From Bacteroidota bacterium (lineage in GTDB: Bacteria > Bacteroidota > Bacteroidia > Bacteroidales > F082): a stretch of DNA of 64,000 bases. Both the position numbers and the translations under genes were made by a program. Position 1 is the first letter of the stretch. Each line of letters begins with the position of its first letter. Shown piece by piece: positions 4,892 to 55,507 of the stretch. The notes under the pieces were generated by a model that did no database searches, had not been told where the DNA came from, and worked only from the letters and a program-made list of their open reading frames with translations. Where the stretch lies: positions 8,590-72,589 of the forward strand of contig NYYH01000014.1 of NCBI GenBank assembly GCA_002686705.1, given 5' to 3'.

Positions 4892-5178
4892 ATATAATTT
4901 TCAAATTAAACGGGGTAAATGAACAAATTTAAAATTCTCTAGCACCTACAAATTAGGAAACAAGACCTTTGCTTTATTATTTATGGCTTTCTGTTTTCAC
5001 TTTTCGCAGAAAAACTATTAAAAACATATTAAAAGTGAATTGTATGTTCTGGAATTTATTAAGTAACGGTCTACGAATAATAGAGATAGTGATTGAATTA
5101 AACAACATATCCAATTTATTGAAAAATCGGTTAGAATTGTTAACACGTCTAGGGGAAAAGTATAAATAATGTTGACCT

Positions 5179-8559: not shown

Positions 8560-9162
8560 TTATTGGTTGCAAAAATTATCAATGTCTTTATCCTCTTGCC
8601 AATTATATTCTATTTGAATGGCTACATTTTTTGCAAATTCCAATCCATGTATGTCTCTTATAAATCCCAAAGTCATATCCATACCTGCACTTATGCCTGA
8701 AGATGTATAAAATTTATCATCGATTGTCCAGCGTGCTTTTCTAATCCATTTTACTTTTTTACCATTAGAAATTACCCAATCGAATGCTATTTTGTTTGAT
8801 GTGGCAACTCTGTTGTCTAAAAGTCCTGTTTTTGCAAGCAATGCACTCCCGGTGCAAACTGTAAGAACAAAGGTGCTTGATTTTGCAATTTGTTTTATAA
8901 TATTTATAAGTGTCTTATTATTAACTTCTTTTCTGGTTCCCATACCTCCGGGAATGAGAAAAACATCCAAACCATCAGCTATCTTTTCAAGTTTTTGTGT
9001 ATCAATAGAAACCCCTTGAGAATTTTTCACAAGTTCGCCTGATTCTGAATAAAAAGAAATTCGGTAATAATCATTAAGCCTGCCCATAATTTCAACAGGA
9101 CCAAATACATCTAGTGTCTCAAAGTCATTAAAAAGTAATACCCCTATTTTTTTGATGTACAT
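8560..9162 (-). CDS. DJ-1/PfpI family protein (isonitrile-hydratase-like)
   Basis: 200 residues of the class I glutamine-amidotransferase-like fold. The nucleophile elbow is VLTVCTGSALLAKTG, with the reactive cysteine near residue 103, and the upstream FLIPGGMGTR is the family oxyanion region. The protein resembles the sensor half of AraC/GATase1 regulators and isonitrile hydratases, but has no DNA-binding domain. The substrate is unknown. It lies 4 bp before the S9 peptidase stop region on the same strand (downstream of that gene), so the two may be co-transcribed. Confidence 0.88.
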   Translation of the reverse strand: MYIKKIGVLLFNDFETLDVFGPVEIMGRLNDYYRISFYSESGELVKNSQGVSIDTQKLEKIADGLDVFLIPGGMGTRKEVNNKTLINIIKQIAKSSTFVLTVCTGSALLAKTGLLDNRVATSNKIAFDWVISNGKKVKWIRKARWTIDDKFYTSSGISAGMDMTLGFIRDIHGLEFAKNVAIQIEYNWQEDKDIDNFCNQ

Positions 9163-43359: not shown

Positions 43360-44397
43360 TTAAAAATATTTAGCCTTCATTTTCAAAGAAACATTAACGA
43401 GAGCTATTAATACAGGTACCTCAACCAAAGGGCCTATTACTGCCGCAAAGGCTTCCCCAGAGTTAATTCCAAAAACAGTAATTGCAACAGCAATTGCAAG
43501 CTCAAAATTGTTACTTGCGGCGGTGAACGAAAGGGTGGCCGTTTTTTTGTAATCTGTTCCCATTTTTCGGCTGATATAGAACGATACAAAAAACATAACT
43601 ACGAAATATATAATTAACGGAATCGCAATACGAACAACATCCAGCGGAAGCTGTACAATATACTCGCCCTTTAATGAGAACATTACATAAATAGTAAAAA
43701 GCAAAGCAACCAACGTTAACGGGCTTATTTTTGGTATAAAACTACGCTGATACCAGCCCTTACTTTTTATCTTAATTAATGAGTAGCGAGTTATTATACC
43801 TGCGAGGAAAGGTATTCCAAGATATATTAAAACACTTTCTGCAATCTGGCCAATAGTAATATCTATTTCTGATCCTCGCAATCCAATTTTCTCCGGGAGA
43901 ATAGTAATAAAGAAATAGGCGTAAATAGAAAAGAATAGTATTTGAAAAATACTGTTGAAAGCAACAAGTCCGGCAGCATATTCGGTGTCACCCTTTGCCA
44001 GGTCATTCCACACAATTACCATTGCAATACATCTTGCCAGCCCAATTAAAATAAGCCCAGTCATATACTGTGGATAATCGTGTAAAAATATGATTGCGAG
44101 CGCAAACATCAACACAGGGCCAATTATCCAGTTTTGGACCATCGATAATAGCAAAACTTTCCGGTTACGAAATACATCTTTCAGTTCTTCATATTTTACT
44201 TTTGCTAATGGAGGGAACATCATAACAATGAGGCCTATCGCTATAGGTATATTGGTTGTTCCTTTATTAAAACTATTCCAGTAGGCTGCAATTGTAGGAA
44301 AAACATATCCAGAACCAACACCGATAAACATTGCTGTAAAAATCCACAGAGTTAAGTAGCGATCTAAAAATGAAAGTTTTTTAATTTGTGATGGCAT
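43360..44397 (-). CDS. acr3: ACR3 family arsenite efflux permease
   Basis: 345 residues, ten hydrophobic segments. Typical ACR3 strings are [21 protein letters not shown] at the start and [17 protein letters not shown], which contains the conserved Cys. [16 protein letters not shown] is the conserved helix near the end. It expels As(III) across the inner membrane. Its start overlaps the arsC stop by 1 bp (TAATG), so translation is coupled to the reductase that supplies its substrate. Confidence 0.95.
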
Positions 44398-44822
44398 TAT
44401 ATCAATGGTTTTAATAGCTCATTATAAAATATTGTAAAATCATGTTCTATTTCATTTCTGATTCTAATAAACTCATTCATGATTTCTTCATCTGTTCCAG
44501 AAGCTTCTGCAGGATCGTCAAAACCAAAATGAATAGTGTTTTTGACCTTTCCACCGAAAACAGGACAACTTTCCTTAGCGCCCCCACAAACAGTGATTAC
44601 ATAATCGAAGTCTTCCGACAAAAAATCTTTAACCGATTTCGGAAAATTAGTACTAATATCAATATTAATATCTTTCATAACGCTTATGGCCAACGGATGT
44701 ACACTTACACCAGGAACAGTACCGGCCGAAAAGACGTTTAAGCCCTGGTTGAAAGATTTCAAAAATCCCTCAGCCATTTGGCTTCGGCAGCTATTTCCTG
44801 TACATAAAATTAATATTTTCAT
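44397..44822 (-). CDS. arsC: Arsenate reductase ArsC, low-molecular-weight phosphatase type
   Basis: 141 residues from ATG 44822, which places the P-loop [15 protein letters not shown] at the N-terminus; a longer in-frame extension lacks support. The redox Cys pair is in [14 protein letters not shown]. It reduces As(V) to As(III), coupled to thioredoxin. It overlaps acr3 by 1 bp; no arsR is seen next to it. Confidence 0.93.
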
Positions 44823-44913
44823 TATTCTTGATAAAAACGGAGCGGTAAAAATATAAACAATAATCACAGAAACTTATTTATCCTGTTGTGAATTAACGTG
44901 AATAAAGAAAAAA

Positions 44914-46190: not shown

Positions 46191-46724
46191 GTGCAAAACC
46201 TTATCAAAACAGAATATTATAGTTCACCAATCGGTGAACTTATTTTGGGTTCGTTTAATGATAAATTGTGTTTGTGTGACTGGCGTTACAGAAAAAAGAG
46301 AACTTCGATTGATTCCAGATTGAAGAACAGAACAAATGCCGACTATATTGAGCAAAGCTCAAACATAATTACAGAAACAATTGCTCAACTCACACAATAT
46401 TTTAAGGGTAATAAAATCAAGTTTAATATTCCGCTTCTATTAATTGGAACTGATTTTCAGAAAGAAGTTTGGGGGGCGCTACAGGAAATTCCTTATGGGA
46501 AAACAAACACCTATTTAAGGCTTGCAAAAGAACTAAAAAACGAGAAGGCAATTCGGGCAATCGCTTCAGCAAATGGTGCAAACGCAATTTCAATAATTGT
46601 TCCATGTCATAGAATTATTGGAAGCAATGGCGGCATGGTGGGTTATGCCGGTGGTTTGGAGGCAAAAATGAAATTACTAAAGCTAGAAAACGCACTGGTT
46701 GGAAACCAGCTTAGTTTATTTTAG
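46191..46724 (+). CDS. ogt: Methylated-DNA--protein-cysteine methyltransferase
   Basis: 177 residues from GTG 46191. The active-site motif IIVPCHRIIGSNG carries the acceptor Cys; the helix-turn-helix part is FQKEVWGALQEIPYGKTNTYLRLA. The N-terminal half is the short Ogt-type methyltransferase domain. It repairs O6-alkylguanine by irreversible transfer to its own cysteine. Stand-alone gene. Confidence 0.95.
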   Translation: MQNLIKTEYYSSPIGELILGSFNDKLCLCDWRYRKKRTSIDSRLKNRTNADYIEQSSNIITETIAQLTQYFKGNKIKFNIPLLLIGTDFQKEVWGALQEIPYGKTNTYLRLAKELKNEKAIRAIASANGANAISIIVPCHRIIGSNGGMVGYAGGLEAKMKLLKLENALVGNQLSLF

Positions 46725-46935: not shown

Positions 46936-47088
46936 ATGTGTCGAAAGATTGATAACATGAATGACATAGTATATAATTTATTGGAAATAGGTAAAATACA
47001 TTTCTCTATGTCAAATTTTGATATGGCAGCATCCTTTTTGGTGGAGGCTCAGTCTATGATCAAAAATATTAATTATTTATATTCATGA
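46936..47088 (+). CDS. 50-residue protein translationally coupled to sigZ
   Basis: Small frame MCRKIDNMNDIVYNLLEIGK... ending in TGA at 47086-47088. It shares four bases (ATGA) with the sigZ start at 47085, the classic overlap of coupled genes. The product is predicted helical (IVYNLLEIGKIHFSM, FDMAASFLVEAQSMI), without signal or membrane segments. The in-frame ATG at 46936 is the first after a stop far upstream. I recognise no family. A role as a regulator of the sigma factor or merely a coupling leader is inference. Confidence 0.55.
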   Translation: MCRKIDNMNDIVYNLLEIGKIHFSMSNFDMAASFLVEAQSMIKNINYLYS

Positions 47089-47675
47089 AAAATAAAACTG
47101 AAGAACTCTGGATACAATATAGTAATAAGCTAAAAGCATTTATTATTAGCAAGGTTCATAATGAAGCTATCGCAGACGATATACTACAGGACGTATTTAT
47201 TAAAGTACATGCAAAAATAGATCAGATTAATAATGATACAAAAATTCAATCATGGGTTTATCAAATAACCCGGAATTTAATTGTGGATCATTTTAGAAGC
47301 ATAAAAAGGGAAGACCAAAAATCGCAATATATATTCGATGACCCTGAAGATAATTTTTCAGATAACATGATGTCAGAAGCAATGCAAGATATGGTCTTAA
47401 TGATGGAAGAATTATCTCCCGAATTTTGCGAAGCAATCTGTTTAATAGAATTTGAAGGAATGAGCCAAAAAGAGTATGCAAAAAAAATTGGCATTTCATA
47501 TTCCGGAGCTAAATCACGAATACAAAGAGCCAGAAAAATGTTAAAGGACATGCTCATGAATTGTTGCCATTACCAGTTTGACAAGTATGGTACGGTTCTG
47601 AGTATCAGCCCCAAAAGCTGTTGTTGTTGTAATGATGAGCAGCTTAATTTGAATGAAACCGTCCTAGCCAAGTAA
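47085..47675 (+). CDS. sigZ: RNA polymerase sigma factor, SigZ type, with cysteine-rich tail
   Basis: 196 residues. Region 2 includes LQDVFIKVHAKIDQINNDTKIQSWVYQITRNLIVDHFR; region 4 has EFEGMSQKEYAKKIGISYSGAKSRIQRARKML, the helix-turn-helix for the -35 element. The C-terminus carries CCHYQFDKYG and PKSCCCC, a thiol cluster as in SigZ proteins, suited to sensing metals or arsenite. No anti-sigma gene with a membrane domain is next to it. It stands upstream of arsM, whose promoter is not of the housekeeping type. Confidence 0.9.
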   Translation: MKNKTEELWIQYSNKLKAFIISKVHNEAIADDILQDVFIKVHAKIDQINNDTKIQSWVYQITRNLIVDHFRSIKREDQKSQYIFDDPEDNFSDNMMSEAMQDMVLMMEELSPEFCEAICLIEFEGMSQKEYAKKIGISYSGAKSRIQRARKMLKDMLMNCCHYQFDKYGTVLSISPKSCCCCNDEQLNLNETVLAK

Positions 47676-47693: not shown

Positions 47694-47726
47694 TGCATCT
47701 TTTTTGTCATTTCACGTCTATATAGT
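47694..47726 (+). promoter_or_regulatory. Candidate SigZ-type promoter of arsM
   Basis: TGCATCTTTTTT, 8 bp, ACGTCTATATAGT. The ACGTC block is 48 bp before the arsM ATG. An almost identical element with the same spacing precedes the gene at 54871. CGTC-containing -10 elements are typical for ECF-type sigma factors; no TAnnTTTG is found here. Confidence 0.7.
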
Positions 47727-47761
47727 GATAAAAGATTTAAAAACAACTAATAACTATAAAA

Positions 47762-48574
47762 ATGGAAAATAACACCAATAAAATCAGAGACGCGGTAAGA
47801 GAAAATTACAGCAAAATCGCAGAAGCGAATTCTACTTATACTGGTTGTGGATGTGGGCCTGAGGTTGATACCGAATGCTGCCCTCCCTCAACATCAACAT
47901 CATTTGACAAAATATCCTCAAAACTCGGATATTCGTTTGAAGAATTAAAAAATGTTCCTGAAGGCTCAAATATGGGGCTTGGTTGTGGAAACCCTCAGGC
48001 AATAGCTGCACTAAAAGATGGTGAAACAGTTATTGACCTTGGAAGCGGGGCAGGATTTGATGTATTTCTTGCTGCAAACCAGGTTGGTCAGAATGGAAGA
48101 GTAATTGGAATAGATATGACCCCAACAATGATTTCGAAAGCACGTAAAAATGCAATTAAGGGAAAATACAATAATGTTGAATTCAGACTTGGGGAAATTG
48201 AAAACATTCCTGTTCAGGATAACATTGCTGATGTAATTATCTCAAATTGCGTTATCAACCTTTCACCAGAAAAACAAAAAGTGTTTAATGATTCTTTTAG
48301 AGTACTAAAAAGTGGTGGAAGACTGGCTATTTCAGACGTAATTGCTACCGCAGAACTACCAGAAGAAATCAAAAACGACATAGCCTTATATGCAGGATGT
48401 GTATCAGGCGCATCAAACCTTAATGAAGTTGAACAAATGCTGAAAAAGGCAGGATTTATTAATATTGAAATTAAACCCAAAGATGAAAGCAGTGAGTTTA
48501 TTCGAGAATGGTCCCCAGGAACCAGCATTCATAAATATATAATTTCTGCTTCTATAGAGGCAATTAAACCTTAG
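47762..48574 (+). CDS. arsM: Arsenite S-adenosylmethionine methyltransferase ArsM
   Basis: 270 residues. SAM motif VIDLGSGAGFDVFLAA; arsenite-binding cysteines in NMGLGCGNPQA, IISNCVINLS and YAGCVSGA match ArsM spacing; the N-terminal CGCGPE...ECCPP is a further Cys cluster. It methylates As(III) to methylated, partly volatile forms. It follows sigZ by 86 bp and has its own ECF-like promoter. Confidence 0.95.
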   Translation: MENNTNKIRDAVRENYSKIAEANSTYTGCGCGPEVDTECCPPSTSTSFDKISSKLGYSFEELKNVPEGSNMGLGCGNPQAIAALKDGETVIDLGSGAGFDVFLAANQVGQNGRVIGIDMTPTMISKARKNAIKGKYNNVEFRLGEIENIPVQDNIADVIISNCVINLSPEKQKVFNDSFRVLKSGGRLAISDVIATAELPEEIKNDIALYAGCVSGASNLNEVEQMLKKAGFINIEIKPKDESSEFIREWSPGTSIHKYIISASIEAIKP

Positions 48575-48598
48575 AATAAAATGGCAGTGAATAAAGAA

Positions 48599-48625
48599 TC
48601 GCTGGCTATGTTAGCGGTTTTTTTT
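48599..48625 (+). terminator. Intrinsic terminator after arsM
   Basis: Short stem TCGCT/AGCGG with a nine-base loop followed by T8. It separates the arsM transcript from hypA. Confidence 0.6.
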
Positions 48626-48632
48626 ATTCTAA

Positions 48633-48658
48633 TGTATTGTTAATTAATTAACAATACA
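48633..48658. promoter_or_regulatory. Rex operator upstream of hypA (26-bp perfect palindrome)
   Basis: The core TTGTTAATTAATTAACAA (48637-48654) equals the Rex consensus TTGTTAAnnnnTTAACAA; the symmetry extends four bases further on each side. It lies directly before the -7 element TATCTTTG at 48659-48666. Rex would repress hypA-hypB when NADH/NAD+ is low. Confidence 0.82.
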
Positions 48659-48666
48659 TATCTTTG
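48659..48666 (+). promoter_or_regulatory. Bacteroidota -7 element before hypA
   Basis: TATCTTTG, 22 bp before the hypA ATG and touching the Rex operator. Confidence 0.55.
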
Positions 48667-48687
48667 CAACTAACAACATGAAGTGTT

Positions 48688-49047
48688 ATGCATGAATTTT
48701 CAATTGCATTAAACGTGGTTCAAAGCGCTGAAGAGGAGGCGATTAAGGTTGACGGAGTCATTACTGAAGTAGTACTTGAAATTGGGAAATTATCTGGGGT
48801 CGTAAAGGAAGCGTTGGAATTTGCACTAGACGAAGCAAAAAAACGAACAAGGCTTTCAGGCGCAATAATTAAATATATCGAAATACCAGGATCTGCAAAA
48901 TGTAATAACTGTGGGAACACGTATGACACAGATGATCATTTTTCCATTTGTCCCGAATGCAATCATCCGTATTGTAGTTTTATTCGGGGAAAAGAAATGC
49001 GAATAAAATCTATCAAAGTTGAAACTGAAAATTCAATAAAGGTATAA
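48688..49047 (+). CDS. hypA: Hydrogenase nickel incorporation protein HypA
   Basis: 119 residues. The nickel-binding N-terminus MHEFSIA is the family hallmark; the zinc site is CNNCG...CPEC near residues 71-93. It delivers nickel to hydrogenase precursors together with HypB, which follows 22 bp later. Confidence 0.96.
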   Translation: MHEFSIALNVVQSAEEEAIKVDGVITEVVLEIGKLSGVVKEALEFALDEAKKRTRLSGAIIKYIEIPGSAKCNNCGNTYDTDDHFSICPECNHPYCSFIRGKEMRIKSIKVETENSIKV

Positions 49048-49069
49048 TTATTAAGAAAGGAGATAAAGT

Positions 49070-49885
49070 ATGTGTGGTACTTGTGGATGCGCAGAAAGTG
49101 ATGAGGTAAAGATTATGAGGCCTCATAATAAAGAAACAATAGAATATTCTAACGATAACCTAACGTATGATTATATTCATACTCATGATGAAAAACATGC
49201 ACATGATTACCACCACCATCATTCTCACTCAAAAGAAATTATTCTTGAACAGGATATATTAAAAAAGAATAACTTATTAGCAGAACGCAACAGGGGTTAT
49301 TTTGATGCCAAGAATATAATTAGCATAAACTTAGTTAGCTCACCCGGATCTGGCAAAACAACACTTCTTGAAAAAACCATCTCTGGTTTAAAGGATGAAC
49401 TTCCTGTATTCGTAATTGAAGGTGATCAGCAAACAATGAATGATGCTGAAAGAATTAAAAATACAGGGGCACCTGTCGTTCAGATAAATACAGGATCAGG
49501 GTGTCACCTTGATTCTTCTATGGTGAATTTAGCAGTTAAGAAATTAGAGCCCAAAGAAAATTCTATATTATTTATTGAAAATGTTGGCAACCTGGTTTGT
49601 CCCAGCATGTTTGACCTCGGAGAAAACTTCCGGATCGTAGTTATAAGCGTAACCGAAGGAGATGACAAACCGGCTAAATATCCAAATATGTTTGAATCAT
49701 CAGACCTGTGTATTATCAATAAGACAGATTTGTTACCCTATGTTGATTTTAACGTGAAGAAAGCGAAAAAATATGCCATGCAGACTAACCAAAACATTGA
49801 ATTTATTGAGCTTTCTGCCAAAACCGAGGATGGGCTCAAAGATTGGATAAACTGGCTAAAAAGCAAATTCAAAGTAGAGAAATAA
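49070..49885 (+). CDS. hypB: Hydrogenase maturation GTPase HypB
   Basis: 271 residues. N-terminal nickel-binding motif MCGTCGCAE, then a His-rich metal-storage stretch (HAHDYHHHHSHS), Walker A SSPGSGKTTLLE and the metal-binding GDQQTMNDAERI and GSGCHL. The GTPase drives nickel insertion into [NiFe]-hydrogenase. AGAAAGGAG precedes the start. hypC-F and hydrogenase genes are not in this window. Confidence 0.96.
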   Translation: MCGTCGCAESDEVKIMRPHNKETIEYSNDNLTYDYIHTHDEKHAHDYHHHHSHSKEIILEQDILKKNNLLAERNRGYFDAKNIISINLVSSPGSGKTTLLEKTISGLKDELPVFVIEGDQQTMNDAERIKNTGAPVVQINTGSGCHLDSSMVNLAVKKLEPKENSILFIENVGNLVCPSMFDLGENFRIVVISVTEGDDKPAKYPNMFESSDLCIINKTDLLPYVDFNVKKAKKYAMQTNQNIEFIELSAKTEDGLKDWINWLKSKFKVEK

Positions 49886-50000
49886 GCAAACACAAATACA
49901 CCCTCCCCATAAGCTTAAAATCTTTAATGCCAAAGTTGGCTAAAAAACAGAATCCTTCTTTGGAAAAAGATCAAAAATCCAATCATGTTAATATTCAGTA

Positions 50001-50018
50001 CTGTTAATTAATTAACAT
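50001..50018. promoter_or_regulatory. Rex operator upstream of rex
   Basis: TGTTAATTAATTAACA (50002-50017), the inner 16 bases of the Rex palindrome, lies in the -33 region of the rex promoter, whose -7 element TATTTTTG is at 50046-50053. It implies negative autoregulation. Confidence 0.72.
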
Positions 50019-50091
50019 TTTTCTTGCATTACTGGTACAACATTGTATTTTTGTATAATAACTATTGAAACTAGTAACATCTAACTGTGCT

Positions 50092-50751
50092 ATGAAACAC
50101 TTACCCCATAAAACAATTGGCAGGCTAAGCCAATACAGAAGGGCTCTTTTACTATGTTTGGCCGATGAGAAAACTCATATCTTCTCACATGAAATAGCAA
50201 AAATTCAACATATAACTGCAGCTCAGGTAAGGCGGGATATAATGCTTATTGGTTATACCGGAACAATTCGCATGGGTTATAATATTCAAGAACTGATTGA
50301 TTTGATCGGAAGCATTATTGACAGCGAAGAGGTAATTAATGTGTGTGCTGTTGGCATGGGAAGACTTGGAAAATCAATAGTTAACTACTTTAACGGTAAA
50401 AGAACTAGACTCTCCATGTCTGCTTGTTTCGATAATGATAGGTTAAAAATAGGCACTGATTTTAAAGGAATTGAAATTTACGATGTAAAAGACCTTAAAA
50501 AGATTGTTAAAGAAAAGAACATTAAGATTGGGATAATCACTGTGACAGCAGTAAATGCAGTTGAAGTATGCGAACAGCTTGTTAAGGCAAAAGTTAAAGG
50601 TATACTTAACTATGCTCCAAAGCGAGTTAATGTACCAAAAAGTATTTTCTTAGAAGAAATTGATATGATTACTTCTCTCGAAAAAGTGGCTTTCTATGTC
50701 AAGACTCATGATGATGAACAGTTTCCTGTTTTCGCCAAATGGGTCACCTAA
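50092..50751 (+). CDS. rex: Redox-sensing transcriptional repressor Rex
   Basis: 219 residues from ATG 50092. The N-terminal winged helix (ALLLCLADEKTHIFSHEIAKIQHITAAQVRRDIMLIG) is followed by a Rossmann NADH-binding domain; the dinucleotide motif VGMGRLGKSI is GxGxxG and the second half contains KIGIITVTAVNA. Rex senses the NADH/NAD+ ratio and leaves its operators when NADH rises. Two matching operators lie within 1.4 kb. The gene ends 2 bp before the transposase stop, so insertion may have altered its last codons. Confidence 0.93.
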   Translation: MKHLPHKTIGRLSQYRRALLLCLADEKTHIFSHEIAKIQHITAAQVRRDIMLIGYTGTIRMGYNIQELIDLIGSIIDSEEVINVCAVGMGRLGKSIVNYFNGKRTRLSMSACFDNDRLKIGTDFKGIEIYDVKDLKKIVKEKNIKIGIITVTAVNAVEVCEQLVKAKVKGILNYAPKRVNVPKSIFLEEIDMITSLEKVAFYVKTHDDEQFPVFAKWVT

Positions 50752-50753
50752 AG

Positions 50754-52187
50754 CTAAAATTCGATATTAAAAACAGCAAGTAACTCTTTTTGTTCTATGG
50801 TGTTAGCCATTACTATTTCAACTGTTTTATTAGAAATGGGTAATGTTGTTTTAACTCCATAAATAGATTTTAGGATATCTAATGCCTTTTCAGGGCTTAA
50901 GCCTGTTTTTTTTACGGAGAGTTGCCTTTCAAACTCTTTGTATAGTTTATAACTACAGAATGCAATTAGCAAATGAGTTTCTATTCTACTTGCTTTTCTA
51001 TGATAAATGGGGCGAACTTTAAGATCTGTTTTAGATATCTTGAATGCCTTCTCTATTTGCCATAACTGCCTGTATTGTTCAATTACTTGCTTAGCATTTA
51101 AAGAAGCATTGGTGATGTAGCCTTTTAGGCCATCCCATTTACTGTCATGGTTTATTTTCCCTAAATCCAAACGTATGGTAGCGTTTCCTTCAATTTTTAA
51201 AAACTTGTTGTACCCTCTATTGTTTATGTTTTCTTTAGTTAACTTGCCAGAGATGATTCGCTTTTGAAGTCTTTTAATTCCATTGTCCCTATTGTTTGCA
51301 TCTTTTCTAGCCCGTTTTTCAGAGTAACTTACAATTAGTTTTGTCCGTTCTTCTTTTTCAAATTCGTGGATAGTATCACTTGCCCACTTCTTAGAAATAA
51401 TCTGATCTTTTAGTTGTTTTGTTTCGTTTTTTATCCTTGCGCCCAGAATAAATTCATAACCATGGCTTAGTAACTGTTCTATATTGTTCTTTGACAGAAG
51501 CCCTGCATCTGCAACCACAACCAACTTACCAGGATTATATCTTTTTTTGAAGTGCTCTAGCACAGGAATAAGCGTTTCTCCTTCATATTTGTTTCCTTCA
51601 AACATCTCAAATGCTAAAGGATAACCTCCGGTAGTAACCAATAATCCAAGAACAATTTGAGGGCAGTGTGGTTTTCCATCTTTACTAAACCCTAGTTTTC
51701 TTAGTTCATCTTCTCTGGAAGCCTCAAAGTACAAAGTGCTGACATCATAGAAGATAGCTGATAAAACACCTTTAAAAAGTTTTAAGGTGTGCTGATAACT
51801 TATTAGTTGCAATTGTTCTTTGTATCCCTGATTGAGTTTGTCCAGATAGCGGTAAACTGATGACATAGGGTAATGCTCCTGATAATGCCTTGACAAATAC
51901 TCAATAGTTCTTAGTTTGCTGCCCGGGTAGAGTAATCTGGAAATTATCAGATGACGTAAAAGTTTTTCCGGGATCTGATTGAAACCTATTTCATTGAATA
52001 TGTTTACTAAAACAAGTTCTGTCCCTACAATGCGAACTGCTTGAATACTTTTGCGAACAAAACTAATATGGTCTTCATCCTGATCATAAGTGAACTCAAT
52101 AGCCTTTTGTTTAGTAAGTCTTTCTATCTCTTTTCGAGCTAAACTCTCAAGTTGATTAATATCACTCTCTCTTTTAGCAGAACCCAT
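50754..52187 (-). CDS. IS1634-like (IS4 superfamily) transposase, probably 5'-truncated
   Basis: 477 residues. The DDE domain shows Asp in IFYDVSTLYFE, Asp in VVADAGLLS and Glu in YRQLWQIEKAFKISKTDLKVRPIYH. The frame is open upstream of the ATG to a TAG at 52236-52238 and reads KQYGNQKLIKSMGSA, the normal family sequence for that place, so about 40-50 N-terminal residues are missing. No terminal inverted repeats were found. A degraded, probably immobile copy is my reading. Confidence 0.85.
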   Translation of the reverse strand: MGSAKRESDINQLESLARKEIERLTKQKAIEFTYDQDEDHISFVRKSIQAVRIVGTELVLVNIFNEIGFNQIPEKLLRHLIISRLLYPGSKLRTIEYLSRHYQEHYPMSSVYRYLDKLNQGYKEQLQLISYQHTLKLFKGVLSAIFYDVSTLYFEASREDELRKLGFSKDGKPHCPQIVLGLLVTTGGYPLAFEMFEGNKYEGETLIPVLEHFKKRYNPGKLVVVADAGLLSKNNIEQLLSHGYEFILGARIKNETKQLKDQIISKKWASDTIHEFEKEERTKLIVSYSEKRARKDANNRDNGIKRLQKRIISGKLTKENINNRGYNKFLKIEGNATIRLDLGKINHDSKWDGLKGYITNASLNAKQVIEQYRQLWQIEKAFKISKTDLKVRPIYHRKASRIETHLLIAFCSYKLYKEFERQLSVKKTGLSPEKALDILKSIYGVKTTLPISNKTVEIVMANTIEQKELLAVFNIEF

Positions 52188-52279
52188 TGACTTAATGAGT
52201 TTTTGATTACCATATTGCTTCTCTGACTTTTCCTTCTAAGTCAAAAATTTTTGTTTTATTTCCCATTTTAAGAATTACT
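50754..52279 (-). mobile_element. Remnant of an IS1634-like insertion sequence
   Basis: The transposase gene fills the whole space between rex and the T9SS pseudogene. Its 3' end lies 2 bp from the rex stop, leaving no room for a normal end, and the 5' part is truncated. Exact borders cannot be set. Confidence 0.5.
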
Positions 52280-54545
52280 TTATTTAATGTTAATCTTCTC
52301 AGTTTCAAAATGCATCCCTTTTTTTGTTTTCAAAATATACATTCCTGGTTTAGCGTCGGTTAATCCATATTCAATATTATTTTTACCAGGCACTAGTCCT
52401 TTGTAAACTTTTTCTTGAACAACTTGTCCATGCATATTGTAAAGAATTGTCTCTAAAGGTTGGGTATCATTTGATATATATTCGAGTGTAAACTTACCAT
52501 TAGAAGGATTTGGATAAACATAAGCATTGTCAGGTTTTGGAGGAGCTACCTTTTCTGAAATTCCAACAGTCTTTGGTATATGTACAAAATAATTGAAATA
52601 ATCTTGAGGATCATTTAGACAAAGATCTTCTCCCTATTGATTCATTTCCCAAATCCTACTGATATCATCTTCATAAACTATTTCTTTATCGAATTTTCTT
52701 TCTATTGAAAGTTGGCTGTTATCTCCGAATTCTGCCCATTCTTCTTCTGTTGGATCTGTAAAGGGTGTCTCCTTGATTGAAAGGAGTTGTTAAAACATAT
52801 GCTCCTTGTGTGTCTTGTACGTTAATTAATTGATCATGAGTTGCTGAAGCTGTATTTGAAGAATTATAATCTCCCACCATCCCATTCCATGTTCTCGTCA
52901 CTAAATAAGTTACATCAGAACAAGAACCATCATTTGTTTGATCTGAAACATCTGAATGTGAATAAACCGTTCCAGCATACAAACTATCTGGTTCTCCATT
53001 TGCTGCTACAGAAATATCTGCAGGAAATTCATGTGTTTGATCATCAGGATATTCTACTTGAAGCATTGGATCCCAGTAGGTTGTTAGATCTGGATCTTGA
53101 AAAGTTAATGTTGGATTTCCTGCCAAAAGATCATATTGTAATACATTCCTTATTGAATGTCCCCACTGATTCCAAATTGAATTATATTCATACCCATACC
53201 AATCTATTTGTACTGAGTGATTTGCATCCATTGAATAATCTCCTGGAACAACTTGTTGATCAGTTTGAGGTTCCCAGAAATACCATTGATTAAAATCTGT
53301 TACATCATTATCTTCCAAATTTTCTGCACCAACAAAATTCCCACAGATAGCATGTGGTACTCCATCCGTGGTTGTAGTTCTCACTCCATAAGCTACATTT
53401 TCCCAATCCCCATTTGTTGAAAAATCATATTCTAAGTTTGCTCCTGAAGATAAACCCGAGTTATCAATATCATAAACTCCAAAAAAATCAATATGTCCCA
53501 TTTGAGTCATGTATTGATCACAGATCCATCCAGAAGTTGTTGCATTAATTTGATTAACTGTATTCTCTATAATATTTGCTTCTAATTTGGTTATTTTATT
53601 TACTTTGTTCTTTATTGCAATATCATCTACTAAAGGAATTGTATCATTACCTGGCCTATATGGAACTAAACCAAATGAAGGATCCGTGATGTCATAAACC
53701 AAATCCATTATTCCTCTTGAACTCATTTGTTTATTTTGTTTATCTCTAAATGATTTTGCTTGTGCTTCATTTAAGAAAGAAACAATTGTATCTCCCGTGG
53801 GTGTTACATGCCAGTGCCTGTATTCTCCATCCCATGATTGGCTTCCATCTTCATTCATTGAATAATCTCCTGGAAAAACTCTCTCATTTGTTTGAGGTTC
53901 AACAAATGTTTCATCAAAGTTAGAAAAAGTTTCTGTTCTTGGCGCCATATCTTCAGGTAATTGAGGGGCATTTTGTGCTTGAATAGAATTTATATTAAAC
54001 AATGAAAATGGGATTTCCTCCTTTGTGAGAGGATCCTGAACAAGTATTGTGCTCATGTCTCTCCAGTGATATTTCAGTTGAACTTTAGTCATGTTGGCAG
54101 CATGACAATCAAAACAAACTTGTCCAACAGCTTCATAGGCTGGCATTATCTTGCCTGGATCTTTAGTCTCAAGCGCCTTTCCAAGTTCATCAACAACACC
54201 CATTGGAAATCTGTTTTTCCATTCAGGAACCATTTTTGAAACTTCAATATATTGGGCTTTAAAATTTTCGAAATCAACTAGCACGTTCTCAAAGTCATTT
54301 TCAAACAGATCGACAACAATTCCCGTAAACGGAGTGTTCATCTCAAACATTTTAAAAAAAATTGGTGCCATTGCAATTGGTGGATAAAAAATATCCATTG
54401 ATGCCGGTGGGGGCGCGGCAAGTTCATTTAGTTCTAAATTCGTCTGTTTTAGCATAGCCAGCTCCTCAGCCTGAGGATTTCTACATCCGGCTATTAATAA
54501 TAAGACAATCGCAGCATTTAATAAGTGTAAACAAATTAGTTTCAT
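52280..54545 (-). pseudogene. Chimeric cytochrome c-type lipoprotein/T9SS protein, frameshifted
   Basis: The frame from 54545 encodes a lipoprotein (LLIAGC) with a heme motif CFDCH and the string DPLTKEEIPF. It then switches in frame to SLFNINSIQAQ, the end of a signal peptide, and continues as a secreted protein with two repeats (EPQT...PGDYSM). Near 52790 the frame is lost, giving a false end at 52719. The -1 frame continues EEEWAEFGDNSQLS to a TAG at 52634-52636, and beyond it comes a T9SS sorting domain (AYVYPNPSNGKFTLEYIS, GMYILKTKKG) ending at 52280. So there are one fusion, one frameshift and one nonsense codon. It lies beside the IS1634-like remnant. Confidence 0.8.
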
Positions 54546-54802
54546 ATAACCTCCTTTTTAATTAAGTAATAAAATTCGCAGAAAATTTAGTATATTTAGT
54601 AAGATTCTAATTATTTAAAACAAATTATTATATACAAACTAATAAATATTTTGACATATTCCAAATTATCAGTTCTGTAAGATGAATTAGAATAATGTCC
54701 AAATATAATATGACTAAGCTCTTTTGCTTACGTTATAACATTGGCCAACAAAACCCGGAAAGCAAATAAAATAACTTTCTAACAATGAATCGCTAAATTG
54801 AA
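54546..54802. other. Non-coding gap upstream of the 98-residue gene
   Basis: Start region of the minus-strand chimeric gene and the space up to the SigZ-type promoter. AT-rich, no repeats, no open frames and no RNA gene found. Confidence 0.4.
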
Positions 54803-54835
54803 TGCATCTTTTTTCTAATTGTACGTCTATATAGT
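54803..54835 (+). promoter_or_regulatory. Candidate SigZ-type promoter of the 98-residue gene
   Basis: TGCATCTTTTTT, 8 bp, ACGTCTATATAGT, the same as before arsM except within the spacer, and also 48 bp from ACGTC to the ATG. The leader shares AAAAACAACTAA with that of arsM. Confidence 0.7.
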
Positions 54836-54870
54836 AAAAACAACTAAGAATTTATCACAAAACATAAATC

Positions 54871-55167
54871 ATGAAAACAAAACTAAATAACACAATGATG
54901 CTTATCCTGATTTCTGTAATCATTACCTTTAGCGTAATATTATCTGACTTTACATTTAAAGATGAGCCCCATATTGATGATATCCCAATCAGCACAGAAA
55001 TTATATTTGACTCTTTAAAAAACCATGAATTTGTTTTTGAAGAAGAAGATTACATTGATGATATCCCATTCAACACTTGTTCAATAGCCATTGAAAGTGC
55101 TAATGAAATTTACGAGGATCTTTATGAGCTTGAAATGACAGAAAAGTGGTGCATGAATAGACTTTAA
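54871..55167 (+). CDS. Small exported acidic protein with repeated DDIP motif
   Basis: 98 residues. One N-terminal hydrophobic segment (MLILISVIITFSVIL) acts as signal peptide or anchor. The rest is strongly acidic and contains a duplicated element HIDDIPI / YIDDIPF about 35 residues apart, plus two cysteines (NTCSIA, KWCMN). No family is recognised. It stands behind a promoter nearly identical to that of arsM, so it may belong to the same stress response; metal or arsenite binding is speculation. Confidence 0.75.
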   Translation: MKTKLNNTMMLILISVIITFSVILSDFTFKDEPHIDDIPISTEIIFDSLKNHEFVFEEEDYIDDIPFNTCSIAIESANEIYEDLYELEMTEKWCMNRL

Positions 55168-55223
55168 ATATCGCAACCAGAAATATAATTATTAATCGGC
55201 TGTGAAAAAAAAATAATGCCAAA

Positions 55224-55260
55224 GCGTATCCTTTCTAAAAAGACTTACGTCCATAAAGAT
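55224..55260 (+). promoter_or_regulatory. Weaker SigZ-like promoter of the 69-residue gene
   Basis: GTATCCTTTCT ... ACGTCCATAAAG; the ACGTC block is 51 bp from the ATG at 55298. The spacer is 2 bp longer than in the other two copies, so the match is partial. Confidence 0.4.
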
Positions 55261-55297
55261 GAAACAACAAATTAATAATTACTAAAAACGAAAAGTC

Positions 55298-55507
55298 ATG
55301 GAAACAATTAAAGAAACTACCCAAAAGAAAGAAATACATGGACTTGCAACTCGCGGCTGGTCAACACTTTGTTATAACTGCGGCATATGCAAATTCGCTC
55401 ACAAAAAACCCGGATCAACCTTTGATAAAGCAATGGAATGGCATCGCACATGGTGTCCTGGCTGGGCTTCACATACCAAAGTGTATGGATTAAAAGATAT
55501 ATCCTAG
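55298..55507 (+). CDS. Small cytoplasmic cysteine protein (CxxCxxC)
   Basis: 69 residues without signal peptide. Cysteines lie in TLCYNCGICKFA (CxxCxxC) and RTWCPGW, with several His and Trp (EWHRTW, GWSTLC, GWASH), suggesting a metal- or thiol-binding small protein. No family recognised. It follows the 98-residue gene by 130 bp behind a partial copy of the same promoter motif. Confidence 0.7.
   Translation: METIKETTQKKEIHGLATRGWSTLCYNCGICKFAHKKPGSTFDKAMEWHRTWCPGWASHTKVYGLKDIS

Follow-up and report, generated by a model that had tools for sequence, protein, structure and literature searches.

SigZ of Bacillus subtilis is the founder of the SigZ family of extracytoplasmic function (ECF) sigma factors, a class of regulators whose promoters have a -35 and a -10 box separated by about 15-17 bp, with CGTC in the latter, CGTC or CGTA being the usual -10 sequence for many ECF sigma factors. 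The prediction of a SigZ promoter and regulon presented here is new, with the reservation that the ECF classification study (Casas-Pastor 2021) may, reportedly, list a predicted motif for the SigZ group. In the literature on SigZ as an ECF sigma factor, within the accessible text of sources including PMC3171730, no SigZ promoter or regulon was found. We describe a promoter-like element that occurs twice in a 64,000-nucleotide stretch of contig NYYH01000014.1 from a Bacteroidota bacterium (this whole stretch is hereafter called the window), once between a SigZ-family gene, sigZ, and the arsenite methyltransferase gene arsM, and once ahead of a small gene for an acidic, putatively exported protein with DDIP repeats. 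We consider it probable, at roughly four in five, that the adjacent SigZ-family ECF sigma factor reads the element as its promoter and answers to thiophilic metals or metalloids. A literature search returned no paper joining SigZ and arsM, and the combination of extracytoplasmic function with arsM led to papers on Cupriavidus metallidurans, as far as their accessible parts reveal.

CorE and CorE2 of Myxococcus xanthus (former ECF44, partly now ECF238), which respond to copper, cadmium and zinc, are the closest precedent for a tail that senses metal. According to the accessible part of PMC8999054, CorE possesses a cysteine-rich C-terminal extension and is under metal control without an anti-sigma factor, and a CXC motif in the linker between sigma2 and sigma4 is essential for its activity. 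The SigZ protein of the window (196 residues, 47085..47675, + strand) likewise carries six cysteines in its last 45 residues, whereas no CXC was found between residues 75 and 104, and the genes associated with SigZ are of the arsenic and mercury type. As the linker CXC is absent, we regard the relation to CorE as a functional likeness and not as membership.

The window protein belongs to the SigZ family, scoring 189.9 bits against TIGR02959 (cut-off 168.65); it reached 195.2 bits against NF007215 (PRK09637), which is below the cut-off of 212. Its domain order is that of an ECF sigma factor, with PF04542 at residues 11-75, PF08281 at residues 104-153 and no match to a region 3 model. The C-terminal tail reads CCHYQFDKYGTV...CCCC, in which a CC-H group closes region 4 and the CCCC cluster follows after a short stretch, and in an alignment of 32 sequences (the window SigZ and 31 homologues) these cysteines vary little or not at all. 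The Priestia SigZ also keeps the CC that closes region 4 but lacks a CCCC-like cluster, whereas most close SigZ members from Bacteroidota have one. A structure model of SigZ was too poor to use (mean predicted local distance difference test score, pLDDT, 73.4; predicted template modelling score 0.41; last 12 residues under 50). A tree of SigZ sequences, in which branches were long and L084 entered in a wrong frame, was used solely for the placement of arsM-linked SigZ proteins, and these fell on more than one branch.

The element in the window

The element, TGCATCTTTTTT-N8-ACGTCTATATAGT, is present as exact copies at 47694-47726 and 54803-54835, both on the + strand; no further match at up to three mismatches was found in the window, and 100 shuffles gave none. 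Both copies fit the anatomy of an ECF-type promoter, TGCATC-N15-CGTCTATA, with TGCATC as the predicted -35 box followed by a T tract and CGTCTATA as the predicted -10 box. The first starts 18 bp past sigZ and ahead of arsM (47762..48574, + strand, 270 residues; 359.2 bits against NF008823, cut-off 263), the second stands ahead of the gene for the 98-residue DDIP protein (54871..55167, + strand). The distance from ACGTC to the ATG is 48 bp in both cases (47714 to 47762 and 54823 to 54871), so that the repeated element and its equal spacing, both noted in the first-pass annotation, were found to be exact. The named parts agree at all 25 positions, but the eight bases between them differ (GTCATTTC vs CTAATTGT), a pattern more suggestive of constraint than of plain copying. 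A shared 12-base leader, AAAAACAACTAA, already part of that annotation, occurs at 47739..47750 and 54836..54847 on the + strand and nowhere else in the window, although it begins 12 bp after the element at the one site and 0 bp after it at the other. The lack of a TAnnTTTG element, claimed earlier for arsM and the two small genes (the DDIP gene and a gene for a 69-residue protein behind it), also held, none being present in the 150 bp before each of them; sigZ is without TAnnTTTG as well.

Both sites were then scored with a weight matrix trained exclusively on relatives, that is on 38 sites picked by pattern with spacers of 15 or 16 allowed, whose own training scores do not count as evidence. 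The site before arsM scored 24.8 and the site before the DDIP gene 19.2, the highest and second-highest values in the window, with the third at 11.2; the top scores of 40 first-order Markov simulations of the window had a mean of 10.3 and a largest value of 18.4. Taken alone, the score of the site at 54803 is only just outside chance, and the site is convincing because it is identical to that at 47694 in all 25 specified bases.

The two small genes fared differently. The DDIP protein is acidic, with a hydrophobic N-terminus and two DDIP repeats in its open reading frame, and has no NCBIfam or Pfam match; four homologues were found among 5.8 billion proteins, one of them 99% identical, and homologues P0138-P0140 sit on contigs of 769-3534 bases. 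Its perfect site is the one ground on which we predict it to be a SigZ target. For the 69-residue CxxCxxC / WHRTWCPGW protein (55298..55507, + strand), which had likewise been proposed as a regulon member, the reported partial copy of the element is indeed there as ACGTCCATAAAG at 55247, 51 bp before the ATG, but the resemblance (55225..55258, + strand) scored -6.8 and is judged not to be a SigZ site. As this was the best candidate in the 200 bp upstream and ranked 142 on the + strand, the gene was rejected as a SigZ target, and on present evidence it is not part of the SigZ regulon. It has no NCBIfam or Pfam match, its 16 homologues share invariant C25, C28, C31, C53 and WHRTWCPGW, and a structure model (mean pLDDT 60.9) gave a weak hint of two strands in CCHYQFDKYGTVLSI and was otherwise unusable. 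Distant homologues of 64-75 residues (FWRWHI..CPGW), a small cysteine protein family, are encoded in L073, L074, L099, L100 and L101, where no site was found in the 200 bp upstream (best 5 or 6 mismatches); these are five of six such loci considered, the sixth, L102, being left out because of a misread frame.

Association of the site with sigZ across genomes

A genome-collection scan yielded 25 SigZ loci, of which L025 (25% identity) was dropped. On first reading, TGCGTCC-TTTT-N..-CGTCTAT was seen directly 3' of sigZ in many of the remaining 24 loci. Sites were counted if they showed at most two mismatches in total to TGCGTC plus CGTCTWT, a spacer of 15 or 16 and at least three T in the seven bases after TGCGTC. 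By this rule 20 of 24 loci have a site no more than 2 kb from sigZ, as compared to 3, 3, 1, 3 and 2 of 24 in five runs on Markov-shuffled stretches of the same loci and 2 of 19 loci of other ECF sigma factors. The loci with a site include Bacteroidota, one Nitrospirota (L021, as TGCATCC) and one Chloroflexota (L022), and most sites lie no further than about 70 bp ahead of a start codon.

The association also appeared when the site was sought independently of sigZ. The pattern TGCRTCYNTTTN{11,12}CGTCTWT matched 9 of 395 Bacteroidota genomes, one site each, and SigZ scored at least 150 bits in eight of them (G002, G018, G234, G680, G569, G523, G725, G701; not in G734); in all eight the site and sigZ are less than 5 kb apart (furthest 4.5 kb). 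The reversed pattern matched 17 genomes, 16 of which served as controls since G680 was already in the first group, and SigZ reached 150 bits in two of these (Fisher p 3e-4 vs 8/9). Leaving out G002 and G018, which were known through SigZ beforehand, gave 6 of 7 (Fisher p 0.002).

With a slightly stricter pattern, five of 198 genomes of the order matched and no reversed match was obtained; SigZ was present in three of the five and not in G216 and G179, and across the 198 genomes it scored at least 107 bits in 11, five of them above the curated cut-off. A relaxed pattern found 26 sites, spread over 23 of 39 SigZ genomes, vs 13 reversed matches. This count is partly circular, since a site was the reason for choosing six of the genomes (G234, G680, G569, G523, G725, G701); with these six left out, 18 matches stood against 8 reversed. 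On the sigZ contig and within 5 kb of sigZ lay 22 of the 26 sites, contigs having been paired by size for the same-contig calls in genomes of the first SigZ scan. The remaining four (G001, G009, G012, G023) are away from sigZ, and three of them precede a MATE gene; since such distant sites precede like genes, the site appears in trans too.

Several observations weigh against SigZ as the reader of a metal(loid)-responsive promoter. No site was found within 2 kb of sigZ in four of the 24 loci (L008, L010, L011, L013), the contig ending 365 and 48 bp past the sigZ match in L008 and L010, nor in the SigZ loci of Priestia, Vibrio and an Arenibacter plasmid, and 16 of the 39 SigZ genomes remained unmatched by the relaxed pattern. 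The 150-bit line was chosen after the scores had been seen, and at a line of 107 bits the control rises to 3 of 16 with G854, which scored 109. The strict pattern gave 9 matches vs 19 for the reversed one in 395 genomes and thus no excess, so that the raw match number was rejected as evidence: the association of site and SigZ rests on place, not on number. For the source organism, the sites described are those of the 64-kb window. Not all predicted targets are metal-themed (PhzF, DUF5916, PAP2 and a 116-residue protein, see below), and L094, a site-bearing locus, has a SigZ without the cysteine cluster, so that the tail cannot be the sole mode of control.

Even so, the motif is present in relatives, as the first-pass annotation had demanded of a true regulon, and the suggestion that SigZ reads the element finds strong support in the comparison. 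The site and its tie to SigZ are well supported in this way, from the conservation we infer that SigZ may recognise the promoter, and the residues of the tail, like the site before the DDIP gene, point to a possible role in metal sensing and in the metal response, respectively.

Genes behind the sites and the mercury methylation loci

Permeases of the ArsP_1 type, assigned by Pfam, are encoded behind the sites in 12 loci (L001-L007, L009, L012, L014, L022, L023). Three that were scanned (L001, L002, L022) had the SO_0444 and SaoE metal permeases as their closest NCBIfam families, below cut-off, and 'organoarsenical' is therefore not to be read into the Pfam name. ArsM stands behind sites in L047, L080, L081 and the window, each above the NF008823 cut-off, and ArsI/CadI in L045 and L078, with acr3 next in L078. 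MATE exporters were identified by Pfam in L018, L032, L042, L111 and L113 and by eye in L016 and L020. In L020 (Bacteroides luti DSM 26991; 8971-9003) and L042 (388-446) two sites stand back to back, one for each of a diverging MATE gene and a serine acetyltransferase-like gene, the latter matching NCBIfam EpsC above cut-off in L020 and encoding a similar hexapeptide protein in L042. Other sites precede genes for DUF2703 (L021), DUF5916 (L024, L079), a PAP2-type protein (L075, barely above cut-off), PhzF (L076) and a 116-residue protein without family match (L087/L122). Behind the sites of L019 (Marinilabilia salmonicolor) and L104 the analysis found no gene. The arsenic and efflux theme is thus dominant among the targets, but it is not the whole list; the earlier proposal of an arsenic or thiol-metal response is strongly supported in its central idea, and some downstream genes have no evident metal role.

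The gene behind the site is sigZ itself in L084 and L128. In L084, a Hymenobacter plasmid, a site at 4931 lies about 50 bp before sigZ, and a second at L084:7023, behind which only an 82-residue frame was found, lies about 0.5 kb from an arsC-acr3 pair running the opposite way; these sites suggest that SigZ may control itself. A GTTTAA stretch is common to the leaders, from site to ATG, of ArsP-type genes in L001, L002, L006, L007 and L014 and is possibly a 5' leader element.

Mercury methylation genes follow a site in two loci. In L015 (Salinivirgaceae) and L017 (Marinilabilia), hgcA stands directly behind the site, with 419.9 and 390.6 bits, respectively, against NF040863 (cut-off 275) and NVWCAAGK present, and hgcB is next to it (NF040864: 95.2 bits in L015, just below the cut-off of 99, and 108.4 in L017). 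The site of L017 is weak (TGAATC-N15-CGTCTTT). HgcA was found in 5 of the 39 SigZ genomes (G009, G015, G017, G019, G024) vs 1 of 385 sampled Bacteroidia above cut-off, corresponding to a Fisher p of 3e-5 by a test that ignores kinship, on 39 genomes drawn unlike the 385 and including one Nitrospirota and one Chloroflexota genome. No SigZ site was found near hgcAB in G009, where the pair lies among ars-type genes, and in G024, or at hgcAB of G931 and G358, which are outside the 39. The site of G019 (Marinilabilia salmonicolor) is close to the end of a contig, and hgcAB is on another contig, behind a DUF5916-like gene. The DUF5916-like protein encoded there (L131:265-1416) shares 62% identity over 205 residues with one behind the L024 site (L024:8206-10053), a likeness that hints at a link but is no proof of it. 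General control of hgcAB by SigZ was rejected, as the site stands directly before hgcA in L015 and L017 only; two loci show the mercury link, which is no general rule.

Separately, hgcAB lies beside arsC-like genes without a SigZ site in L138 (G009) and L136 (G358), in L138 additionally with an acr3-like gene recognised by eye, which ties arsenic genes to mercury methylation in Bacteroidota in another way. For Pseudodesulfovibrio mercurii ND132, control of hgcAB by an ArsR-like, arsenic-type regulator has been reported, as cited in the accessible text of PMC10349881, whereas the candidate in L015 and L017 is not a repressor but a sigma factor that has a promoter of its own. Sigma factor, hgcA and methylmercury were not found together in the literature search. 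Along a permafrost thaw gradient, the highest hgcA expression in fen sites came from Bacteroidetes, and the fen hgcA transcribers were all vadinHA17, not close to the cultured Marinilabiliaceae bearers (accessible portion of PMC7438021).

Alternatives, proposed mechanism and significance

The sites stand before ars-type genes, and ArsR-like regulation of hgcAB is on record, as stated above; the element might accordingly be the binding site of an ArsR- or MerR-like repressor or activator of a metal response instead of a sigma promoter. We hold this to be very improbable in view of its anatomy, namely two boxes with a common reading direction and a gap of 15-16 bp, located for the most part less than about 70 bp ahead of a start codon and showing CGTC as -10; moreover, no inverted repeat was evident by eye at the window sites and the gene that co-occurs with the site is sigZ. 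It is also improbable, if less so, that the two window copies are alike merely through duplication of arsM promoter DNA, for instance by the insertion sequence between them, with a functionless copy before the DDIP gene. Such an event would fit the 12-base leader common to both copies and the transposase gene of insertion sequence type that separates them, but the two copies match at all 25 box positions and not in the N8 spacer or in the DNA past the leader, and the distance to the ATG is equal although the leader position is not.

A further possibility concerns the signal. SigZ may read the promoter and answer a general thiol or oxidative stress, such as a low thiol redox state, in place of metal(loid)s, and the serine acetyltransferase and MATE genes among the targets, together with the DUF5916, PhzF and PAP2 genes behind sites, would be in line with this. 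As the largest share of targets consists of ArsP-type permeases, ArsM, ArsI with ACR3 and HgcAB, we consider it rather unlikely, and favor a promoter of SigZ that responds to thiophilic metal(loid)s.

Under this preferred reading, RNA polymerase carrying SigZ would recognise TGCRTC, followed by a T tract, at -35 and CGTCTWT at -10, 15-16 bp apart, and would transcribe arsM and, 7 kb off beyond the insertion sequence, the small exported DDIP gene. The likeliest trigger would be arsenite or another thiophilic metal(loid) that binds to the C-terminal cysteine tail (CCH...CCCC) and thereby releases or stabilises SigZ. ArsM would then methylate the toxicant, which in relatives would be exported or processed by the ArsP-type permease, MATE, ACR3 and ArsI proteins.

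The surroundings of sigZ contain further arsenic genes. An arsenite efflux transporter gene, acr3 (43360..44397, - strand; 458.1 bits against TIGR00832, cut-off 282.8), and an arsC-type arsenate reductase gene (44397..44867, - strand; PF01451 and 116.9 bits against TIGR02691, below the cut-off of 174.3) form a pair on the opposite strand, 2.2 kb before sigZ; no SigZ site was found for either, and both are regarded as context genes. Upstream of sigZ lie an ogt-type methylated-DNA cysteine methyltransferase gene (46191-46724, + strand; TIGR00589) and a 50-residue frame (46936-47088) without Pfam match that overlaps the sigZ start; no neighbour of sigZ in the window was recognised as an anti-sigma gene. 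The transposase gene (DDE_Tnp_1) occupies 50754-52187 on the - strand, between arsM and the DDIP gene. At 52280-54545, also on the - strand, lies the gene of a large exported protein with a CxxCH-type stretch, identified by eye in the list of open reading frames and apparently split into a 608-residue frame ending at 52719 and a separate 51-residue frame (52280-52435) that resembles its C-terminal part; this is likely a broken gene.

In a wider and more tentative view, which may well prove too broad, SigZ would be a sigma factor of several phyla that senses metal(loid)s directly, has no anti-sigma partner and, through its conserved promoter, links arsenic methylation and export with hgcAB. Methylmercury formation in some Bacteroidota would then be part of a sigma-controlled metalloid stress response, with the DDIP protein as a new exported member. 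For two Bacteroidota loci the analysis names a specific candidate as regulator of hgcAB, the tie to the fen setting remaining speculative, and suggests a way in which bacteria may sense arsenic via the sigma factor itself. With it, a little-characterised sigma factor family gains a predicted promoter and a predicted gene set together.

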